From NCBI RefSeq assembly GCF_037948395.1, contig NZ_CP149940.1, forward strand, positions 2,418,001-2,482,000: a stretch of 64,000 nt of DNA, given 5' to 3'. How positions within the stretch are numbered: the stretch's first letter is position 1; each line of letters begins with the position of its first letter. A model generated the notes under the pieces. That model was not told where the DNA came from. It was given only the letters and a program-made list of their open reading frames with translations, and ran no database searches. The position numbers and the translations under genes were made by a program. Shown piece after piece: positions 14,390 through 48,063 of this stretch. The DNA comes from Serratia nevei (GTDB lineage Bacteria > Pseudomonadota > Gammaproteobacteria > Enterobacterales > Enterobacteriaceae).

Positions 14390-14488
14390 CATTGTAAATT
14401 GTTACATTGGGTTATTGACTGGCGGCGCTCATTCGGGGATTAATGTTAGCCTGATTTTTACCTTACCTATAAAAAACAGGGAGTTAAC

Positions 14489-15349
14489 ATGACATTAACC
14501 ACGCATAAAATGGAAAGCGGCCTGGCCGTAACAGTTCGTTTACCTGATAACCCGGCCAAGGTTCCGGCGATTATTCTGTGTCACGGCTTCTGCGGCATTC
14601 AGGAGCTGTTGCTGCCGGCCTTTGCCGAGGCCTTCGTCAACGCCGGTTTTGCGGCGGTGACGTTTGACTATCGCGGCTTCGGCGCCAGCGAGGGCGAACG
14701 CGGGCGGCTGGTACCGGCGCTGCAGATTGAGGATATCCTGGCGGTGAGCCGGTGGGTGCAAACGCAGCCGCAGATCGACAGCGAGCGCATCGGCCTGTGG
14801 GGCACGTCGTTTGGCGGCTGCCACGTGTTCGGCGCTGCCGCGGCCGAGCCGGCCATCAAGTGCGTCGTTAGCCAGCTGGCCTTCGCCGACGGGGAAACCA
14901 TCGTGACGGGGAAAATGGCCGCCGACGAAAAACAGGCGTTCATCGCCACGCTGGACAAAATGGCGGAGAAGAAGCAGGCCACCGGCAAAGAGATGTTTGT
15001 CGCCGTCACCCGGGTGTTGAGCGATGACGAGTCGAAAGCGTTCTTCGAGGAGAACAAGGTGCGTTACCCGGCGATGGACATCAAGATCCCGTTCCTGACC
15101 GTGCGCGAAACGCTGCGCTATCAGCCGCGTGACAATGCGGCGCGAGTCACATGCCCGGTACTGGTGGTGGTGGCGGGCGGCGATACCGTGAATCCGCCGG
15201 AGCAGGGCATCGCGCTGTATGAGGCGGTAGGCAGCGCGAAGAAGGCGCTGCATGTCGAGCAGAATGCGAAGCACTATGACATGTACGCCGGCCCGCATTT
15301 CGCCGGCATCATCGGCCGTCAGATCGCCTGGTTCAACGATCACCTGTAA
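14489..15349 (+). CDS. Alpha/beta hydrolase downstream of nicB
   Basis: A 286-residue serine hydrolase of the dienelactone-hydrolase/FrsA-like group. The nucleophile elbow is GTSFGG, the oxyanion region is CHGFCGIQ, the acid is likely the D of VVAGGDTVNP, and the histidine lies in AKHYDMY. It begins 99 bp after nicB behind an AT-rich stretch and a GGGAG ribosome site, so it may have its own promoter. No known step of the nicotinate pathway needs it. Its 3' end overlaps the convergent LysR gene by 17 bp. Confidence 0.8.
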   Translation: MTLTTHKMESGLAVTVRLPDNPAKVPAIILCHGFCGIQELLLPAFAEAFVNAGFAAVTFDYRGFGASEGERGRLVPALQIEDILAVSRWVQTQPQIDSERIGLWGTSFGGCHVFGAAAAEPAIKCVVSQLAFADGETIVTGKMAADEKQAFIATLDKMAEKKQATGKEMFVAVTRVLSDDESKAFFEENKVRYPAMDIKIPFLTVRETLRYQPRDNAARVTCPVLVVVAGGDTVNPPEQGIALYEAVGSAKKALHVEQNAKHYDMYAGPHFAGIIGRQIAWFNDHL

Positions 15350-38708: not shown

Positions 38709-39878
38709 TCAGCGGCTGCGCCGTGACATGACCCGTTTGTCTTTCGGCCGATCCTGCCAGTCCTCAGCCTGGTTGTTGAAGTTATCCGCCAGCAGGTAGG
38801 CCGGGGTTTTCGCCAGCCAGTCGGACAACGAAATATCCTGATAAATGCCATTGTCCATCACGATCAGCACCTTCAAATCCTCATCGCCGATGTTCTCGAT
38901 GTAATGGCCGAAGCCCTGCGGCACGTAACCGACGTCTGAAGGGGCGTACTCTTCCGTCTGTGCGTGGCCGTGCGAGCTGAACACCGTCATGCGGCCTTTG
39001 CCGGCAATATAGTATTGCCATTCGTTGGCATTGGGGTGCCAGTGCAATTCCCGGATCGCGCCGGGTTTCACGATCTCGATGATGCCGGTCATGGTGGTGG
39101 AAATGGGAAATTCTTTCGATGACACCAAATGCACGCTGCCGGCGTCATTTTCAAAGAACGGCTTTTGCTTCATTAATTCATAGCGGTGGGTCAGCGGGGC
39201 GTTATTTAATCCGCCGTCGTTTTTCGGCAATGGCAGGGCGGGCGGAACGGCGCCGCCAACAATATAGGCCTCACCCTGTTTGGCCTTGGAAAATACCGCC
39301 GCCGGCATGTCGACGCTTTTTTCCAATACCTCTTTCGGCATATGCGCCACCCAGTCGGTGATGCTGAAGGTGCCGAATTCGGAGAAATGGCCGTTATCGA
39401 ACGCCAGAATAAAATGCGCGCCGTCCGCCAGCGCCTGAATGGAATGGCCGTAGCCTTTCGGGAAATACCACACGTCGCCGGGCCCGAAATCCGCCACTTC
39501 GCATTTGCCCTCGGGATCGAGGATGGTGATGCGCGCATGGCCTTCCAGCATAAACGCCCATTCGGCGGCGATGGCGTGCCAGTGCAGCTCGCGCACGCCG
39601 CCCGGCTCCAGCGTCATGTCGACGCCAGCCACGCCTTCGGAGATTGGAAACTGCTCGACGGTGGCCTCGCGCGCCCAGCCGCTGGGCAGGCTGCGTTTCT
39701 TGCTGTCGGTGAATTTGTACTTATAGAGATGCTGCGCATTAGCAGGCGGCTGGTAGCTGCTGGGGGGCACGATATTGCGGTGGTCGTCGGCAGCGGCATT
39801 TTTAGCGATGCCGCCGATCATGCCGGCGGCGGCCGCGCTGACGGCGGACACTTTCAATATATCACGACGCGATAGCAT
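38709..39878 (-). CDS. Tat-exported bicupin, oxalate decarboxylase family
   Basis: A 389-residue protein with two cupin domains. A twin-arginine signal (LSRRDILKVSAVSAAAAG) starts it, so it acts outside the cytoplasm. Both manganese sites are intact: HWHAIAAEW and HWHPNANEW each give H-H-E, with a later histidine in GYGHS and GFGHY. The lid that in Bacillus OxdC reads SENST here reads SEFGT; the glutamate used as proton donor is kept. Decarboxylation of oxalate is the best guess; oxidase activity or another substrate is possible. The ATG at 39878 has a GGAGAA ribosome site. Confidence 0.85.
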   Translation of the reverse strand: MLSRRDILKVSAVSAAAAGMIGGIAKNAAADDHRNIVPPSSYQPPANAQHLYKYKFTDSKKRSLPSGWAREATVEQFPISEGVAGVDMTLEPGGVRELHWHAIAAEWAFMLEGHARITILDPEGKCEVADFGPGDVWYFPKGYGHSIQALADGAHFILAFDNGHFSEFGTFSITDWVAHMPKEVLEKSVDMPAAVFSKAKQGEAYIVGGAVPPALPLPKNDGGLNNAPLTHRYELMKQKPFFENDAGSVHLVSSKEFPISTTMTGIIEIVKPGAIRELHWHPNANEWQYYIAGKGRMTVFSSHGHAQTEEYAPSDVGYVPQGFGHYIENIGDEDLKVLIVMDNGIYQDISLSDWLAKTPAYLLADNFNNQAEDWQDRPKDKRVMSRRSR

Positions 39879-40179
39879 AGCATTTTCTCCAATATAAAAC
39901 CGTGCGCCCGCAGAGGCAGGCGACAGGGAAGGCGCGAGCGCCATTGAAATGATTTTTTGTCATCGGCGGGAACAGGCTGTGACCCTTAAATCCTAGTGGC
40001 TGGAATTTATTGGGTAGGCGCTTATTTGTTTGCGTTTGTTACTAAGTGAGAGCGGGTTTGATTAATTACTCGGAAGTTGAATAGTCATTAATTGGAATTA
40101 ATTTTAGTCGCCGACCGGTTTAAATAAATAATAAACGAACGGCATTTTTTATTGGCCGTTCGGGCTTTTTATGACTGCG
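39879..40179. promoter_or_regulatory. Bicupin promoter region and ancestral lysR terminator
   Basis: The AT-rich 39950-40130 stretch should hold the bicupin promoter. At 40136-40162 CGAACGGC and GCCGTTCG form an 8-bp stem with an 11-base loop. Read on the minus strand it lies 7 bp after the displaced lysR stop codon (40169-40171) and is followed by a T-rich tract, so it is the original lysR terminator. Confidence 0.65.
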
Positions 40180-40218
40180 CCACGGTCTCCAGCACCAGCT
40201 GACGAAACCGTTCGACGA
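40169..40218 (-). pseudogene. Displaced 3' end of the lysR gene now at 47152
   Basis: On the minus strand these bases encode VERFRQLVLETVAQS and a TAA, in the same frame as the C-terminus of the LysR gene at 47152-48063 (which now ends LETVGKS). It is the severed original gene end, separated by the restriction-modification island. Confidence 0.85.
40180..40218. repeat. 39-bp direct repeat, left end of the hsd island
   Basis: Identical over 39 bp, in the same orientation, to 47163-47201. Outside the repeat the two flanks differ at once. The repeat lies within the lysR coding end. Confidence 0.95.
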
Positions 40219-40320
40219 GGCTGAACGGTGACAACAGCCTGAAAACCCGTTTCAAGTCATTACGTAATGCATTAATTTGTGTAAAATCAGAGTTAACCCA
40301 ATACCGTTGAGAACTTTGCT

Positions 40321-42753
40321 ATGGCTGGCGTAAACAAAACACATCTGACCGAAACGGACATCATCACCAAATTTATTCTGCCTGCGGTCAAGGAAGCCGG
40401 TTGGGATGTGATGTCACAGATTCGGCAGGAAGTGAAACTCCGGGATGGTAAGATCGTAGTGCGCGGAAAACTGGCTTCCCGTATCAAAGTCAAATCCGCC
40501 GATATCGTTCTCTACCACAAGCCAAACTTGCCATTGGCGGTGATCGAGGCAAAAGCCAATCAGCACGCCATCGGCAAAGGGATGCAACAGGGGCTAAATT
40601 ACGCCGGTCTGCTTGACGTTCCCTTTGTGTTTGCTTCCAACGGCGACGGTTTTATCTTCCATGACAAAACCAATCCGCAGCAGTTGGAGTCCGAAATTGC
40701 ACTTAGCGATTTTCCGACGCCTGAACAGCTATGGCAGAAGTACTGTGTCTGGAAAGGGTTCACGCAGGAGCAATTGCCGGTCATCAGCCAGGATTATTAC
40801 GATGACGGCAGTGGCAAGTCCCCCCGTTACTATCAGATGCAGGCGGTCAACCGAACGGTCGATGCCGTATCGGCAGGGAAAAACCGCGTTTTGTTGGTGA
40901 TGGCGACCGGTACGGGCAAAACCTATACCGCGTTTCAGATCATCTGGCGGTTGTGGAAAGCGAAAAACAAAAAACGCATTCTGTTCCTGGCGGATCGCAA
41001 CATTCTTGTCGATCAGACCAAAAATAACGATTTCCAGCCGTTTGGCAACGCCATGACCAAAATTACCGGGCGTACCATCGATCCGGCCTATGAGGTTCAT
41101 CTGGCATTGTACCAGGCGATAACCGGCCCCGAAGCGTATCAAAAAGCCTACAAACAGGTGGCGCCCGACTTCTTCGATCTGATCGTGATCGACGAATGCC
41201 ACCGTGGCAGCGCCTCCGAAGACTCCGCTTGGCGTGAAGTTCTGGAGTATTTCGGCAGCGCCACCCAGATTGGCCTGACGGCGACGCCGAAAGAAACCGA
41301 AGACGTCTCCAACATCGACTACTTCGGTGATCCGGTATACACCTACTCGCTGAAAGAGGGCATTGAAGATGGCTTCCTCGCGCCGTACAAAGTGGTGCGT
41401 GTGGATATCGACGTTGATGTCCAGGGCTGGCGGCCGCTTAAAGGACAGTTGGATAAATACGGCGCAGAAATTGAAGATCGTATTTATAACCTGAAAGATT
41501 TTGACCGCACGTTGGTGATTGAAGAGCGCACCATGCTGGTGGCGCAGACCATCACCGATTACCTCAAGCGCACCAACCCGATGGATAAAACCATCGTCTT
41601 CTGCAACGACATCGATCATGCCGATCGCATGCGCCACGCGTTGGTGGTGCTGAATCCGGAACAGGTCCTGAAGAACGAAAAGTATGTGATGAAAATCACC
41701 GGCGATGATGACGCAGGCAAGGCGCAGCTGGATAACTTTATCAATCCTAAGAAAGCCTACCCGGTTATCGCGACGACCTCGGAGTTGATGACTACCGGCG
41801 TGGATGCCCAAACTTGTAAATTGGTCGTGCTGGATCAGAACATCCAGTCGATGACCAAGTTCAAACAGATCATCGGGCGCGGCACGCGCATTAACGAAAA
41901 GTACGGCAAACTGTGGTTCACCATTCTCGATTTCAAAAAAGCGACCGAGCTGTTTGCGGATGAGCGCTTTGACGGCGTGCCGGAAAAAGTGCTGATTGTG
42001 AAGCCTGACGATATTTCAGACGCGGGGTCTGATTTTAATGAACGGTTGGATGCTGAAGAGAACGCAGAAGAGACCTGCGGCGCTGCGCATGAAGAACCGG
42101 CGGAATACCAGACCAACCCGGATAAATCGGCGGGGAACGGTGAATTCCATCCGAATGACGACGACAAAACCCGTAAATTCTATGTCAATGGCGTGACCGT
42201 CAGCGTGCTGGCCAAACGCGTTCAGTATTACGATGCCGATGGCAAACTGGTCACTGAATCTTTCCAGGATTACACCCGTAAAACCTTGCTCAAAGACGGT
42301 GAGTTCGCCTCGCTTGATGGCTTTGTGCGTAAATGGCAGGCGGCGCCGCGCAAACAGGCCATTATCGAAGAGCTGGAACAATTGGGTATCCTGTGGGATG
42401 TGCTGGCCGAAGAGGTGGGGAAAGATCTCGACCCGTTTGATTTGCTCTGCCATGTGGTGTACGGTCAGCCGCCGTTAACGCGCCAGGAGCGTGCCGCCAA
42501 CGTGCGTAAGCGTGATTATTTCACCAAATACGCCGAGCCGGCGCAGCAGGTGCTCAGCACGCTGCTGGATAAATATGCCGATGAAGGGGTCCAGGAAATC
42601 GAAGACGTTCAGGTCTTGAAACTGAAGCCGTTCGATACGCTGGGGCGCCCGCTGGAAATCATCAAAACCCGCTTCGGTGACAAGCAGGCTTACGAACAGG
42701 CGGTTAACGAACTGGAAAACGAAATCTATCGGTTACCGCCGCGTTTCGCCTGA
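40321..42753 (+). CDS. hsdR: Type I restriction subunit HsdR
   Basis: An 810-residue motor and nuclease subunit. The N-terminal PD-(D/E)XK site is D61, E76 and K78 ([15 protein letters not shown]). The superfamily 2 helicase follows: Walker A MATGTGKT at residues 194-201, DECH at 291-294, TATPKE, and [10 protein letters not shown] near 520. With HsdM and HsdS it translocates unmodified DNA and cuts at random distance. Its length fits the EcoAI-like (type IB) group better than EcoKI. The sequence upstream, 40219-40320, is AT-rich and holds the promoter. Confidence 0.95.
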
Positions 42754-42825
42754 TAGCGCATAAACCTTTCGCCACGGGTTGCTTCCGCAGCCGGTGGCAT
42801 CCTTTTTTAAGTATGGAAAGAAAAC

Positions 42826-44298
42826 ATGTCGATTAGCTCAGTGATTAAATCCCTTCAGGACATTATGCGCAAAGACGCCGGCGTAGATGGCGACGCGCAG
42901 CGCCTTGGCCAGCTTTCGTGGCTACTGTTTCTGAAAATTTTCGATACTCAGGAAGAAGAGCTGGAATTGGAGCAGGATGATTACCAGTTCCCGATCCCGC
43001 AGCGCTATTTATGGCGCAGCTGGGCGGCGAACAGCGAAGGGATCACCGGGGAGGCGCTGCTGGAGTTCATCAACGACGATCTGTTCCCGACGTTGAAAAA
43101 CCTCACCGCGCCTATCGACAAAAATCCGCGCGGTTTTGTGGTCAAACAGGCGTTCAGCGATGCCTATAACTACATGAAGAACGGCACGTTGCTGCGCCAG
43201 GTGATCAACAAGCTCAACGAAATCGATTTCAGCAGCAGCCAGGAACGCCATCTGTTCGGCGATATCTACGAACAGATCCTGCGTGACTTGCAAAGTGCCG
43301 GTAATGCGGGCGAGTTCTATACCCCGCGTGCCGTGACGCGCTTTATGGTCAACCGTATTGACCCGAAACTGGGCGAGTCGATCATGGATCCGGCCTGCGG
43401 CACCGGCGGCTTCCTTGCCTGCGCGTTCGACCATGTGAAAGAGCATTACGTCAAAACGACCGAAGACCACAAAACGCTGCAAAAACAGATTCACGGCGTA
43501 GAGAAGAAACAGCTGCCGCACCTGCTGTGCACCACCAATATGTTGTTGCACGGCATTGAGGTGCCGGTACAAATTCGCCACGACAACACACTCAACAAAC
43601 CGCTGTCCTCCTGGGATGAGCAGATTGACGTGATCGTCACCAACCCGCCGTTTGGCGGCACCGAAGAAGACGGCATCGAGAAGAACTTCCCGGCCGAGAT
43701 GCAAACCCGTGAAACGGCGGATCTGTTCCTGCAGCTGATTATCGAAGTGCTGGCCGATAAAGGCCGTGCGGCGGTGGTATTGCCGGACGGTACGCTGTTT
43801 GGCGAAGGCGTAAAAACCAAAATCAAAAAGCTGCTTACCGAAGAGTGCAACCTGCACACCATCGTGCGTTTGCCGAACGGCGTGTTTAACCCGTATACCG
43901 GCATCAAAACCAATATTCTGTTCTTCACCAAAGGTCAACCGACTAAACAGGTGTGGTTCTACGAGCATCCGTACCCGGACGGTGTGAAGAACTACAGCAA
44001 AACCAAACCGATGAAGTTCGAAGAGTTCCAGGCCGAAATCGACTGGTGGGGCAACGAAGCGGACGGTTTTGCCGGCCGTGAGGAAAACAATCAGGCGTGG
44101 CAAGTCAGCATCGACGACATCATCGCCCGCAACTTCAACCTCGATATCAAAAATCCGTACCAGGGTGAAACCGTCAGCCACGATCCGGATGAACTGCTGG
44201 CGCAGTACCAGAAGCAGCAAGCGGAAATCAGCGATCTGCGCAACCAGCTGCGCGATATCCTCGGCGCTGCGCTGGCCAGCAATAAAGGGGCGAACTGA
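42826..44298 (+). CDS. hsdM: Type I DNA methyltransferase subunit HsdM
   Basis: A 490-residue N6-adenine methyltransferase. S-adenosylmethionine motif I is DPACGTGGF at residue 188 and the catalytic motif IV is NPPFGG at residue 273. It starts 72 bp after hsdR with a GAAAGAAAA upstream stretch. Its stop overlaps the hsdS ATG by one base (TGATG). With HsdS it forms the modification enzyme that protects host sites. Confidence 0.95.
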   Translation: MSISSVIKSLQDIMRKDAGVDGDAQRLGQLSWLLFLKIFDTQEEELELEQDDYQFPIPQRYLWRSWAANSEGITGEALLEFINDDLFPTLKNLTAPIDKNPRGFVVKQAFSDAYNYMKNGTLLRQVINKLNEIDFSSSQERHLFGDIYEQILRDLQSAGNAGEFYTPRAVTRFMVNRIDPKLGESIMDPACGTGGFLACAFDHVKEHYVKTTEDHKTLQKQIHGVEKKQLPHLLCTTNMLLHGIEVPVQIRHDNTLNKPLSSWDEQIDVIVTNPPFGGTEEDGIEKNFPAEMQTRETADLFLQLIIEVLADKGRAAVVLPDGTLFGEGVKTKIKKLLTEECNLHTIVRLPNGVFNPYTGIKTNILFFTKGQPTKQVWFYEHPYPDGVKNYSKTKPMKFEEFQAEIDWWGNEADGFAGREENNQAWQVSIDDIIARNFNLDIKNPYQGETVSHDPDELLAQYQKQQAEISDLRNQLRDILGAALASNKGAN

Positions 44299-46010
44299 TG
44301 AGCGTTGAGAAACTGATTACCGATCATATCGATATCTGGTCCTCGGCCCTGCAAACTCGCTCCACCGCCGGGCGCGGCAGCAACGGTAAAATCGACCTCT
44401 ATGGCATTAAGAAACTGCGTGAGCTGATTCTGGAACTGGCGGTGCGCGGCAAACTGGTGCCGCAGGATCCGAATGATGAACCGGCGTCTGAGTTGTTGAA
44501 GCGTATTGCGGCTGAAAAAGCGGAGCTGGTAAAGCAGGGGAAAATTAAAAAGCAGAAGCCGCTGCCGGAAATTAGTGAGGATGAGAAGCCGTTTGAGTTG
44601 CCGAAGGGGTGGGCATGGATCAGATTAGGTGATGCGACAATTAACCGTGATTCTGAAAGGATTCCACTTTCATCTGATGAACGCTCCAATCGACAAGGGA
44701 TATATGACTATTATGGTGCGTCAGGAGTTATTGACAATATTGATGACTTCCTGTTCGATGAAACACTCCTTCTTATTGGTGAGGATGGAGCTAATTTGAT
44801 AAACAGAACAACATCAATAGCTTTCATGGCTCACGGTAAATATTGGGTGAATAATCATGCGCATGTATTAGATGGTATTTGCGTGAGTTTTCTTGAATAT
44901 GTCTGCTTGTATATCAACTCTATTAATCTTGAGCAATATATTACGGGGACGGCCCAGCCTAAAATGAATCAAGCAAAAATGAATACTATTTTGCTTGGAT
45001 TAGCACCAAAAAGAGAACAGTCTCGAATACTATCAAAAGTTAACATACTTATGTCCCTCTGCGATCAACTGGAACAGCACTCGCTAACCACTCTGGATGC
45101 CCATCAGCAACTGGTGGAAACCCTGCTGGCAACGCTGACCGACAGCCAAAATGCCGAAGTACTCGTCGAAAATTGGGCGCGAATCAGCCAACATTTCGAT
45201 ACGTTGTTTACCACCGAAGCGAGCATCGACGCACTTAAGCAAACCATTCTGCAACTGGCAGTGATGGGTAAATTGGTACCGCAGGATCCTAACGACGAAC
45301 CGGCTTCTGAACTGCTTAAGCGTATTGGGCAGGAAAAAGCGCAGCTGGTGAAAGAAGGCAAAATTAAAAAGCAAAAGCCGTTGCCACTAATTAATGATGA
45401 TGAGAAACCGTTTGAGTTGCCGGAAGGTTGGACGTGGGTAACGCTATCACATCTGGGGATTTTCTCTGGTGGTAAAACCCCTAGCAAGATGAGAGATGAG
45501 TATTGGGGCGGAGATATTCCCTGGGTGACACCAAAGGATATGAAAACGTGGCTAGTAACGAACTCAGAGGATTTCGTTACTAGCTTGGCAATTGAAAGTG
45601 GGTTAAGTAAATTCTCTCCAGGATGTTTGTTGTTTGTTGCAAGGAGTGGAATCCTGAGAAGAACATTTCCTGTTGCAATAACAGCTATTGAATGCACTGT
45701 TAATCAAGATTTAAAAGTTTTGAAACCTTTCGTTTTAAACACTAATAGCTATATTCTTTTGATGATGCGTGGTTTTGAAAAATATATACTTGAGAACCTT
45801 ACCAAGGTAGGAACAACTGTTGAAAGTTTATTGTTCGATGAGTTTTCATCACATCCTTTCATGTTGCCTCCCTTAGAGGAACAACTCCGTATCTGCGATA
45901 AAGTAAATGAAATATTGAATGTTTGCGATACCCTCAAGTATAACCTCCATTCCGCCCAGCAAACCCAGCTCCATCTGGCGGACGCACTCACAGACGCAGC
46001 ATTAAACTAA
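44298..46010 (+). CDS. hsdS: Type I specificity subunit HsdS
   Basis: A 570-residue protein with two target-recognition domains, each reading one half of a bipartite site. The conserved regions are an internal repeat: LVPQDPNDEPASELLKRI begins at about residues 53 and 326, each followed by a KIKKQKPLP helix. The recognition domains themselves (about 44620-45050 and 45440-45950) are clearly AT-richer than the conserved parts, a sign of domain exchange. The target sequence cannot be predicted from sequence alone. Confidence 0.93.
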   Translation: MSVEKLITDHIDIWSSALQTRSTAGRGSNGKIDLYGIKKLRELILELAVRGKLVPQDPNDEPASELLKRIAAEKAELVKQGKIKKQKPLPEISEDEKPFELPKGWAWIRLGDATINRDSERIPLSSDERSNRQGIYDYYGASGVIDNIDDFLFDETLLLIGEDGANLINRTTSIAFMAHGKYWVNNHAHVLDGICVSFLEYVCLYINSINLEQYITGTAQPKMNQAKMNTILLGLAPKREQSRILSKVNILMSLCDQLEQHSLTTLDAHQQLVETLLATLTDSQNAEVLVENWARISQHFDTLFTTEASIDALKQTILQLAVMGKLVPQDPNDEPASELLKRIGQEKAQLVKEGKIKKQKPLPLINDDEKPFELPEGWTWVTLSHLGIFSGGKTPSKMRDEYWGGDIPWVTPKDMKTWLVTNSEDFVTSLAIESGLSKFSPGCLLFVARSGILRRTFPVAITAIECTVNQDLKVLKPFVLNTNSYILLMMRGFEKYILENLTKVGTTVESLLFDEFSSHPFMLPPLEEQLRICDKVNEILNVCDTLKYNLHSAQQTQLHLADALTDAALN

Positions 46011-46020
46011 GGAACGGACG

Positions 46021-47124
46021 ATGCCGCTTCATCATGCAATCTGGCGGGTGGGGGATGCCCCACAGCCACTGGCTATCAGCAAGCTCCCCAGCGAACAACT
46101 GCTGGAGAAGATGATCTTAAGCGATCCGACCATCCTCTCCGACCAGTGGATGCTGATCGGCCATCAGGAAAATACCCTTGATAAGGGGCGTATCGATCTG
46201 CTGGCTATCGCGCCGGATGCCTCGTTGATTCTGATTGAGCTGAAGCGCGATCGCACACCGCGTGAGGTGGTGGCGCAGGCGTTGGACTATGCCTCCTGGG
46301 TGGATGATCTCACCGCCGATCGTCTGTCGCAGATTTACGAAAAATTCTCCGGCGGCGGCAATCTGGGGGAGGCGTTTAAGCAACGCTTTAACACTGAACT
46401 GGAAGAGGACTCCCTGAATCAGTCACACCAAATTATCATCGTGGCGGCAGAGCTGGATCCCTCGACCGAGCGTATCGTGGACTATCTCAGCAAAAATGGC
46501 ATCTCGATTAACGTGCTGTTCTTTAAAGTGTTCCAGCACGGCGACGATCAGTTCTTAAGCCGCGCCTGGCTTCTCGATCCGAGCGAAACGCAAACCAATG
46601 CTGCACAAGCCACCGCAGGAACCAGCGCCAAAACCAAAGATCCCTGGAACGGGGAGTTCTATGTTTCATTTGGCGATCCGTTAAGCCGGAGCTGGGAAGA
46701 GGCGCGTCGCTACGGGTTTATCAGCGCCGGTGGCGGCAGTTGGTACAGCCAGACCTTAAAGCAGCTCCAGCCCGGCGACCGCGTGTGGGTAAAGATCCCG
46801 GCAACGGGCTATGTAGGCGTCGGTTTGGTCCAGAGCGCTGTAGAGCCCGTCAGCAGTTTTACGGTTAACACCGAAGACGGTGAAAAACCGGCGATGGAAG
46901 TGCTTAAGTATCGCGAGCTGTATCGCCGCAATGCCGATGATCCGGACAAATCAGAGTATTTTGTCCCGGTGAAATGGCTGGAAACCCGCAGTGAAGAAGA
47001 TGCGGTCAATGAAGTGGGCTTTTTCGGTAATCAGAATACGGTATGTAAACCGACGGCGCCGAAGTGGCGCCATACCATTGAGAAGCTGAAACGCTATTTC
47101 CGCCACTGGGATGCGGACGCGTAA
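46021..47124 (+). CDS. PD-(D/E)XK nuclease with C-terminal PUA/EVE-like domain, fourth hsd gene
   Basis: A 367-residue protein starting 10 bp after hsdS, so in the same operon. The N-terminal half has a restriction-type active site, D59 in GRIDLLAIAPD and E73 with K75 in LIELKRD, as in NucS/DUF91-like nucleases. The C-terminal half (from about residue 210: WNGEFYVSFGD, then LQPGDRVWVKIPATGYVG) looks like a PUA/ASCH/EVE-type small beta-barrel that binds RNA or modified bases. A role as accessory nuclease beside the type I system is inferred from position. Confidence 0.75.
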   Translation: MPLHHAIWRVGDAPQPLAISKLPSEQLLEKMILSDPTILSDQWMLIGHQENTLDKGRIDLLAIAPDASLILIELKRDRTPREVVAQALDYASWVDDLTADRLSQIYEKFSGGGNLGEAFKQRFNTELEEDSLNQSHQIIIVAAELDPSTERIVDYLSKNGISINVLFFKVFQHGDDQFLSRAWLLDPSETQTNAAQATAGTSAKTKDPWNGEFYVSFGDPLSRSWEEARRYGFISAGGGSWYSQTLKQLQPGDRVWVKIPATGYVGVGLVQSAVEPVSSFTVNTEDGEKPAMEVLKYRELYRRNADDPDKSEYFVPVKWLETRSEEDAVNEVGFFGNQNTVCKPTAPKWRHTIEKLKRYFRHWDADA

Positions 47125-47151
47125 TGGGGCTGGGCGATGGGATCGCCATCA

Positions 47152-48063
47152 TCAGCTCTTCCCCACGGTCTCCAGCACCAGCTGACGAAACCGTTCGACG
47201 ATCGGCGAAGCCGGGCTGCGGCGCAGCGCCAGGTAAAGCGGGGCGCTGAGCTGCGCCTCTTCGGCGAGGGTGCGGTAGACGATACCGTCGCCGCCCAGCC
47301 GCCGCATTGAGCCGGGCACCACTGACAGCCCCAGCCCGGCGCCGACCAGGCTGAGGGTGGCCGGCAGGCGCGGCGCTTCCTGCACGATGCGCGGGCTGAA
47401 GCCGGCGCGGTGGCAGGCGGCCAGGATGGCGTCGTACAGCCCCTGGCCGGCCGGGCGGCGATAGAGAATAAACGCCTCGTGGGCCAGTTCGGCCAGCGGC
47501 AGCGGCTGCTGCGTTTCTTGCGCCAGCCGGTGGCCCAGCGGCAGGGCGACGATCATCGGTTCGCTGAGCACCGGCACCACGCTCAGGCCGGGAATGCCGC
47601 TGGCCGGCGAACGCACAAAGGCGGCGTCGAGGCGCTGTTCCAGCAACGCCTCCATCAGTTCGCCGCTGCCGGCTTCTTCCAGCTGGGTGGTGATGCCCGG
47701 CAGGATGTCGCGGTAGCGGCGCAGCAGGTTGGGCACGAACGGGTGCAGCGCGGCGGAGCTGGTGAAGCCGATGGCGATGTGCCCCTGCTCGCCGCGAGCG
47801 GCGCGCTGCACCGCTTCGCGCAGGCGTTCGGCGCGCGCCAGCAGGGCGCGGGCCTCTTCGAACAGCACGCCCCCCGCTTCGGTAACGCGCACGCCGCGCG
47901 GCAGGCGCTGCAACAAGGTGACGCCCAGTTCATCTTCCAGCCCCTGCAGCAGGCGGGTCAGCGGCGGCTGCTGGATAAACAGCCGCTCGGCGGCGCGGGT
48001 GATGTTGCCTTCTTCCACTACGGTGACGAACGCCCGCAGGCGACGCAGTTCGATCATAGCCAT
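47152..48063 (-). CDS. LysR-family regulator, 3' end exchanged by the hsd island
   Basis: A 303-residue LysR protein with N-terminal helix-turn-helix (IELRRLRAFVTVVEEGNITR, QPPLTRLLQGLEDEL). It is divergent from the chromate transporter genes at 48166 and probably regulates them. Its last residues are now VGKS and the stop is TGA at 47152; the earlier end VAQS with TAA is stranded at 40169-40218 beyond the island. The protein is intact. Confidence 0.92.
   Translation of the reverse strand: MAMIELRRLRAFVTVVEEGNITRAAERLFIQQPPLTRLLQGLEDELGVTLLQRLPRGVRVTEAGGVLFEEARALLARAERLREAVQRAARGEQGHIAIGFTSSAALHPFVPNLLRRYRDILPGITTQLEEAGSGELMEALLEQRLDAAFVRSPASGIPGLSVVPVLSEPMIVALPLGHRLAQETQQPLPLAELAHEAFILYRRPAGQGLYDAILAACHRAGFSPRIVQEAPRLPATLSLVGAGLGLSVVPGSMRRLGGDGIVYRTLAEEAQLSAPLYLALRRSPASPIVERFRQLVLETVGKS
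47163..47201. repeat. 39-bp direct repeat, right end of the hsd island
   Basis: Perfect copy of 40180-40218, encoding the C-terminal codons of the lysR gene. Confidence 0.95.

Follow-up and report, generated by a model that had tools for sequence, protein, structure and literature searches.

A type I restriction-modification island at the 3' end of a lysR gene in Serratia nevei, most likely an old and stranded att-flanked insertion

The window (the whole 64-kb stretch of DNA that was analysed, 64,000 nucleotides) carries, behind a lysR-family gene, a four-gene type I restriction-modification (R-M) island enclosed by two identical copies of a lysR 3' end. The locus is most likely an old, stranded, att-flanked defence island, and the explanation is mostly an ordinary one of a known kind. 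With a probability of roughly 0.55 we read it as an integrase-less, CIME-like remnant, left by an att-flanked element that integrated at the lysR 3' end. Since the empty sites of related genomes match the joined flanks of the island, and the same module occurs elsewhere as island cargo, integration of an element carrying its own lysR tail is supported. The features on which the argument draws are given below; G014 and G021 are other genomes of the genus, the latter a second carrier of the island.

38709-39944, minus strand: cupin-domain gene; next to lysR on the left in the empty alleles, and next to the operon on the left in most alleles that have one
40136-40162, minus strand: putative terminator, a hairpin past the stop of the stranded lysR end with a T-rich run after it; G014 lacks most of it
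40169-40179, minus strand: stranded lysR end, last codons and TAA stop, at the same place in empty sites
40180-40218, minus strand: left 39-bp repeat, the stranded original lysR 3' end, in frame to VAQS (repeat search, codon comparison)
40209-40218, minus strand: putative crossover segment of at most 10 bp, left copy, with its partner at 47192-47201 (Arg-codon marker, left versus right copies of G021)
40219-40320, plus strand: inner left edge of the insert, ahead of hsdR, with all 102 bases as in G021
40321-42753, plus strand: hsdR, restriction subunit of the EcoAI/FtnUII family
42826-44298, plus strand: hsdM, methyltransferase
44298-46010, plus strand: hsdS, specificity subunit, unlike G021 in both target-recognition domains
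46021-47124, plus strand: NucS-like nuclease, PADLOC PDC-S11 candidate defence protein, below curated Pfam and NCBIfam cut-offs
47152-48063, minus strand: lysR-family regulator, ending VGKS
47163-47201, minus strand: right copy of the 39-bp repeat, the end of lysR as it now stands, which probably arrived with the insert (repeat search, codon comparison)

Repeats, lysR ends and content of the insert

The two direct repeats match at 39 of 39 bases and lie 6,983 bp apart, just as the first-pass annotation had placed them, and a looser match runs over 44 nt at 95% identity (starts 40175 and 47158). Repeats of 39 bp are not expected by chance in the window, as shuffles gave none, and the whole genome held no further copy at up to three mismatches. 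The right copy is indeed the 3' end of the present lysR gene with its VGKS ending, and the left copy leads, in the same frame, to VAQS and TAA. The terminator hairpin proposed behind that stop has a weaker standing: it folds as a 7-bp stem, but the stretch does just modestly better than shuffled sequence (z = -1.45), and a scan of the stretch with loops of 3-8 called no terminator. Likewise, the insertion was first said to swap the C-terminus of LysR, and the tail has changed, but the wording is too strong for an exchange in which two residues alone differ (VGKS versus VAQS).

Between the repeats, the insert codes for HsdR, HsdM, HsdS and one nuclease and for nothing else, as originally described. 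HsdR scores 1182 bits against NF046051 (cut-off 550), and together with HsdM and HsdS it makes up an EcoAI-family type I R-M system. The nuclease matches the PADLOC candidate family PDC-S11; its NucS-like region scores below the curated Pfam and NCBIfam cut-offs, and its C-terminal half is without a match in either collection; the predicted model was poor (mean pLDDT 35), and a search for a solved relative found none. The unit lies flush with the repeats, with 102 bp to hsdR on one side and 38 bp to the nuclease stop on the other. Its G+C content is 51.2% vs 56.5% and 65.2% in the ~10-kb flanks.

The description of the island as lacking an integrase also held. Neither tyrosine nor serine recombinases (PF00589, PF00239) had a match in the 64-kb window; the 16 PF00589 matches of the genome all lie elsewhere, the nearest on the chromosome more than 380 kb from the window, and neither of its two PF00239 matches falls inside it. 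A recombinase of its own, a criterion for an active integrative element (ICE, IME or prophage), is thus missing. Tblastn with three integrases gave no integrase next to this lysR in 25 loci fetched from other genomes. The repeat core, searched for as an exact degenerate pattern, had 0 matches in IMG/VR, and its best match in phages was a single one of 21 bases. Among the 20 matches listed from plasmids (51 records), the eight covering at least 80% of the core were 80-81% identical. Of 392 family genomes, six of them from the genus, three had matches, and every one of these came from the genus.

Occupancy of the lysR-cupin interval across the genus

Thirty genomes of the genus were surveyed; four had no lysR match, so that the interval was compared in 26. 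The R-M island occupies it in two, the window genome and G021, which is a second species. A relic remains in one genome of a third species (G010): the nuclease is there together with the last part of hsdS, and the cupin gene is mostly gone as well. In this relic (L034:3020-3500 region, the reverse of oriented 14400-14990), sequence resembling that upstream of hsdR lies close to the hsdS end and the nuclease. The interval is empty in seven genomes (G014, G024, G029, G013, G022, G012 and the more distant G002). In the other 16 it holds an operon with a PTS transporter, a family 1 glycosidase and a PRD/CAT antiterminator, the content being read from a Pfam run on the G011 copy and from tblastn for the remaining copies.

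The left side had been interpreted as the stranded original gene end, and the six close empty genomes, all from related species, bear this out: six of the 26 genomes show a clean junction between the lysR end and the cupin gene. The joined flanks of the window align with them over the full length at 93.2-95.2% identity, the gaps being confined to the terminator region, the edge of the repeat (G012) and one place far upstream (G024). The predicted empty-site junction therefore exists in six species, but not with the predicted VAQS ending, in place of which the gene ends VGQS, VGES or VGQT. The hairpin foreseen there is mostly present as well, G014 lacking most of it and G012 having a shifted stop.

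Other cargo between the same repeats, for which the first reading proposed a check, was not found: the 39-mer was absent from the fetched loci of all 16 operon genomes at up to nine substitutions, and equally from G002. Of the suggested repeated homologous exchange at a defence hot spot, exchange at this locus is plausible, because the interval also carries other content in the form of the PTS/beta-glucosidase-type operon (16 of 26). The operon is convergent with lysR (L035, L036, L039 and 13 further genomes) and pairs with a different lysR tail, e.g., VAEAVQASG; hence the last dozen lysR codons follow the neighbouring content.

Origin of the two lysR tails and entry of the island

Codon markers, read in the gene direction, separate the two tails. 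The right copies of all three carriers (window genome, G021 and G010) have CGG, AGC or AGT for serine, and TGA, and the left copy of G021 has CGC, TCA and TAA. The window left copy shares TCA and TAA with the latter, but has CGG as in the right copy. The close empty sites have CGC in six of six and TCA in four of six (ACA in G022, shifted in G012), with TAA as the stop in four, TGA in G014 and a shifted stop in G012. Since AGY and TCN serine codons are more than one substitution apart, the right tail most likely arrived with the insert, and the left tail is probably the resident one; with just three to four marker sites, the tails appear to be of different origin. In length, the open frame of the three carriers equals that of five of the six close empty genomes, so the carried tail preserves it.

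In G021, the Arg marker and everything 3' of it is of the right type on the right and of the resident type on the left, which would place the crossover within the first 10 bases of the block, at its gene-internal edge. As the window left copy also has CGG, this placement is drawn from the single genome G021. A crossover at the gene-internal edge is what tyrosine integrases targeting gene 3' ends tend to produce, but chance could put a RecA crossover in the same place. The repeat copies of G021 differ at three of 39 bases (36/39 identical), and the few sites at hand suggest that the identical copies of the window genome are partly homogenised and not freshly made. A history of excision and reintegration was considered for these identical copies and dropped, as no simple series of crossovers yields the present bases; local conversion or mutation suffices to explain them.

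R-M systems have reportedly been found inserted with long target duplications (Nobusato 2000 and Furuta 2010, from the Kobayashi group), and a similar event, by the unit itself or by illegitimate recombination, might have duplicated ~44-50 bp of lysR. We consider this unlikely while leaving it some weight. The island resembles such cases, as far as their available descriptions go, in that the R-M unit sits flush between long direct repeats of a target gene that is single-copy in the empty allele, and in that it consists of R-M genes and the nuclease with nothing else; it differs in that the two copies seem to be of different origin at three to four sites and in that the repeat of ~44-50 bp ends at or near the stop. 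Papers of the group (PMC3031569 and PMC3874152) describe such duplications as long and variable, in the order of 100 bp. A target duplication, however, begins as two identical copies, whereas the right copies here differ from the left and empty ones in serine class, in the Arg codon (not from the window left copy) and mostly in the stop, and the step between AGY and TCN is not a single substitution.

Integration of an att-flanked element is thus preferred. As the review PMC5704250 defines them, CIMEs share with the island the direct repeats at a gene 3' end, the known empty site and the lack of a recombinase inside. The difference from that definition is that no cognate integrase or parental ICE/IME was seen at this lysR end and that the insert is the R-M-nuclease module alone. 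By this route, a circular DNA would have carried hsdR-hsdM-hsdS-nuclease together with its own copy of the last 15 lysR codons and the stop, and one reciprocal crossover near the 5' edge of the shared block would have integrated it. The lysR gene would thereby have gained the tail and stop of the element, and the original tail and terminator were left on the other side, as the empty sites show. The likeliest agent would be a tyrosine integrase of the original element, lost before the three carrier species diverged; the flush ends of the unit count against such a loss, since it would have needed a very neat deletion. What was left may be described as an att-flanked, non-autonomous remnant, which has since been a resident locus with turnover of its specificity domains and which would have been lost or replaced in some lineages by recombination through the flanking genes.

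Age of the island and the same module elsewhere

The identity at third codon positions of nuclease and lysR, respectively, is 88.8 and 90.6% between the window genome and G021, 86.1 and 87.5% between the window genome and G010, and 85.8 and 85.7% between G021 and G010. As the two genes have diverged alike, the insert is an old resident. Between the window genome and G021, third positions are 87.8% identical in hsdM and 94.1% in hsdR. The target-recognition domains of hsdS (window positions 44621-45060 and 45441-45930) are 54-55% identical to those of G021 in nucleotides, compared with 80-100% in the other segments of the insert. The left intergenic flank is 90.1% identical to G021, while the 102 left inner bases are identical, which may be the mark of a later exchange at that end.

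A rival reading is that the unit is still mobile, with an integrase encoded elsewhere in the genome acting on it in trans and excision taking place at the repeats. The perfect repeats of the window genome and its 16 PF00589 matches outside the window are compatible with this. Against it, the repeats of G021 have drifted, the insert is as diverged as lysR, and the GCG (Ala) codon of both island-bearing left copies is absent from all six close empty alleles, so that the latter have probably not arisen by recent excision of these islands. Present mobility is therefore very improbable, and the trans-mobilisation proposed by the first-pass annotation finds no support in its present-day form: lysR and the island have diverged to a similar degree, and the repeats are perfect in the window genome alone.

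Trees were built from core sequence of up to 8 kb for 16 genomes and, separately, from both flanks. Island, empty and operon alleles are interspersed in all of them, with several supports low. The lysR-side tree places the window island with the G011 operon group (support 0.93), and the core tree separates G010 from the other two carriers and joins the window genome with G021 at a support of 0.15. Later recombination through the flanks is likely, vertical inheritance with losses being the alternative. In the extreme, the island might spread and disappear solely by homologous recombination through the flanking genes, with the repeats a now idle relic of its first arrival. The interspersed alleles would fit, as would the operon alleles, which alternate with the others yet have no repeat, and the divergence of the insert, which tracks that of lysR. 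We hold it to be quite unlikely, because it leaves the duplicated lysR end and the first junction unexplained, and the tree supports are partly as low as that for the window genome with G021.

When the GTDB species-genome collection was scanned, 28 loci turned up, and the 20 with full hsdR and nuclease were used for counts. The eight left out were the G010 relic (L048), two loci at contig ends (L049, L072), three with the nuclease alone (L052, L053, L068) and two distant ones (L074, L075); the nuclease match is partial at L070 and L073. This type I system has the nuclease as its constant partner: at 18 of these 20 loci, from several enterobacterial genera, it begins within ~20 bases after the hsdS match, the exceptions being L050, where it is 2.1 kb away, and L071, where the hsdS match is truncated. 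At L071 (Candidatus Symbiopectobacterium), a second, C-terminal nuclease remnant lies ~1.5 kb upstream of hsdR (L071:2534-2776), which looks like the replacement of one module by another or the joining of two. A tRNA or tmRNA gene is present at 12 of the 20 loci and a tyrosine-integrase match at 10 (tblastn with three queries; weak at L058-L060 with 21-24% identity, and split in two frames at L071), with either one at 16. Five IMG/VR contigs code for a relative.

At the module ends of all 20 loci no repeat rose above background, the best ungapped score within 800 bp being at most 13 and 120 control pairs of unrelated flanks reaching 21. The repeats do not travel with the module, which speaks for the target duplication considered above. 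A search for second tRNA tails (18 bases, up to two mismatches) at 14 loci, limited by the length of the fetched DNA, found one, at L066. This locus, in Enterobacter sp. CC120223-11 (L066:2708-11849), is a 9,117-bp unit between perfect 25-bp repeats of a tRNA-Arg 3' end, without an integrase; it codes for a PDDEXK_4 protein, HsdRMS, the nuclease and a 143-aa protein. The genome of this strain had no match to the integrase of the E. coli tRNA-Arg island at E 1e-20. In E. coli itself, eight of 5,426 genomes match the nuclease region, and the three loci examined are all islands with an integrase beside tRNA-Leu or tRNA-Arg; one has a broken hsdS and other genes in between, and another an ATPase gene between hsdS and the nuclease. 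In the Serratia-type genome G006, the same four-gene module stands bare and without an integrase match behind tRNA-Arg(CCT) (L088:11193-18500). Its 7,122 bp stand in place of 94 bp in the empty sister G008; homology to G008 stops 4 bp beyond the tRNA, and a second tRNA tail was not found at this insertion. As the G006 nuclease is 83% identical to that of the window, it represents a separate acquisition.

The bare units behind lysR in the S. marcescens group, behind tRNA-Arg(CCT) in G006 and in the 9.1-kb Enterobacter tRNA-Arg unit are what would suggest that hsdRMS-nuclease is itself a mobile defence cassette, non-autonomous and dependent on integrases that insert it in trans at the 3' ends of genes. 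We regard this as a speculative and improbable reading; the preferred one is a remnant of an att-flanked element.

The enterobacterial tRNA islands are among the closest known systems, with the same four genes in the same order and often an integrase and tRNA-Arg or tRNA-Leu nearby, in contrast to the present locus, which has a protein gene as its target and lacks an integrase. The immigration control region of E. coli, a variable locus that combines hsd with other restriction genes, is alike in having type I genes beside a second restriction-type nuclease, and unlike in locus and nuclease. The literature titles and abstract beginnings retrieved contained none about this lysR locus, and the word "LysR" does not occur in the available main text of the S. 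marcescens R-M population paper PMC11023947.

If the locus is just a decayed island, as seems likely, it is ordinary. It is a well-resolved case of a type I R-M system turned resident, with an empty site, a stranded gene end, a probable carried-in end and a putative crossover segment. Moreover, enterobacteria have one conserved four-gene defence module in three settings, namely tRNA islands, a bare tRNA site and the end of a protein gene, which makes the idea of trans-mobilised defence cargo testable.
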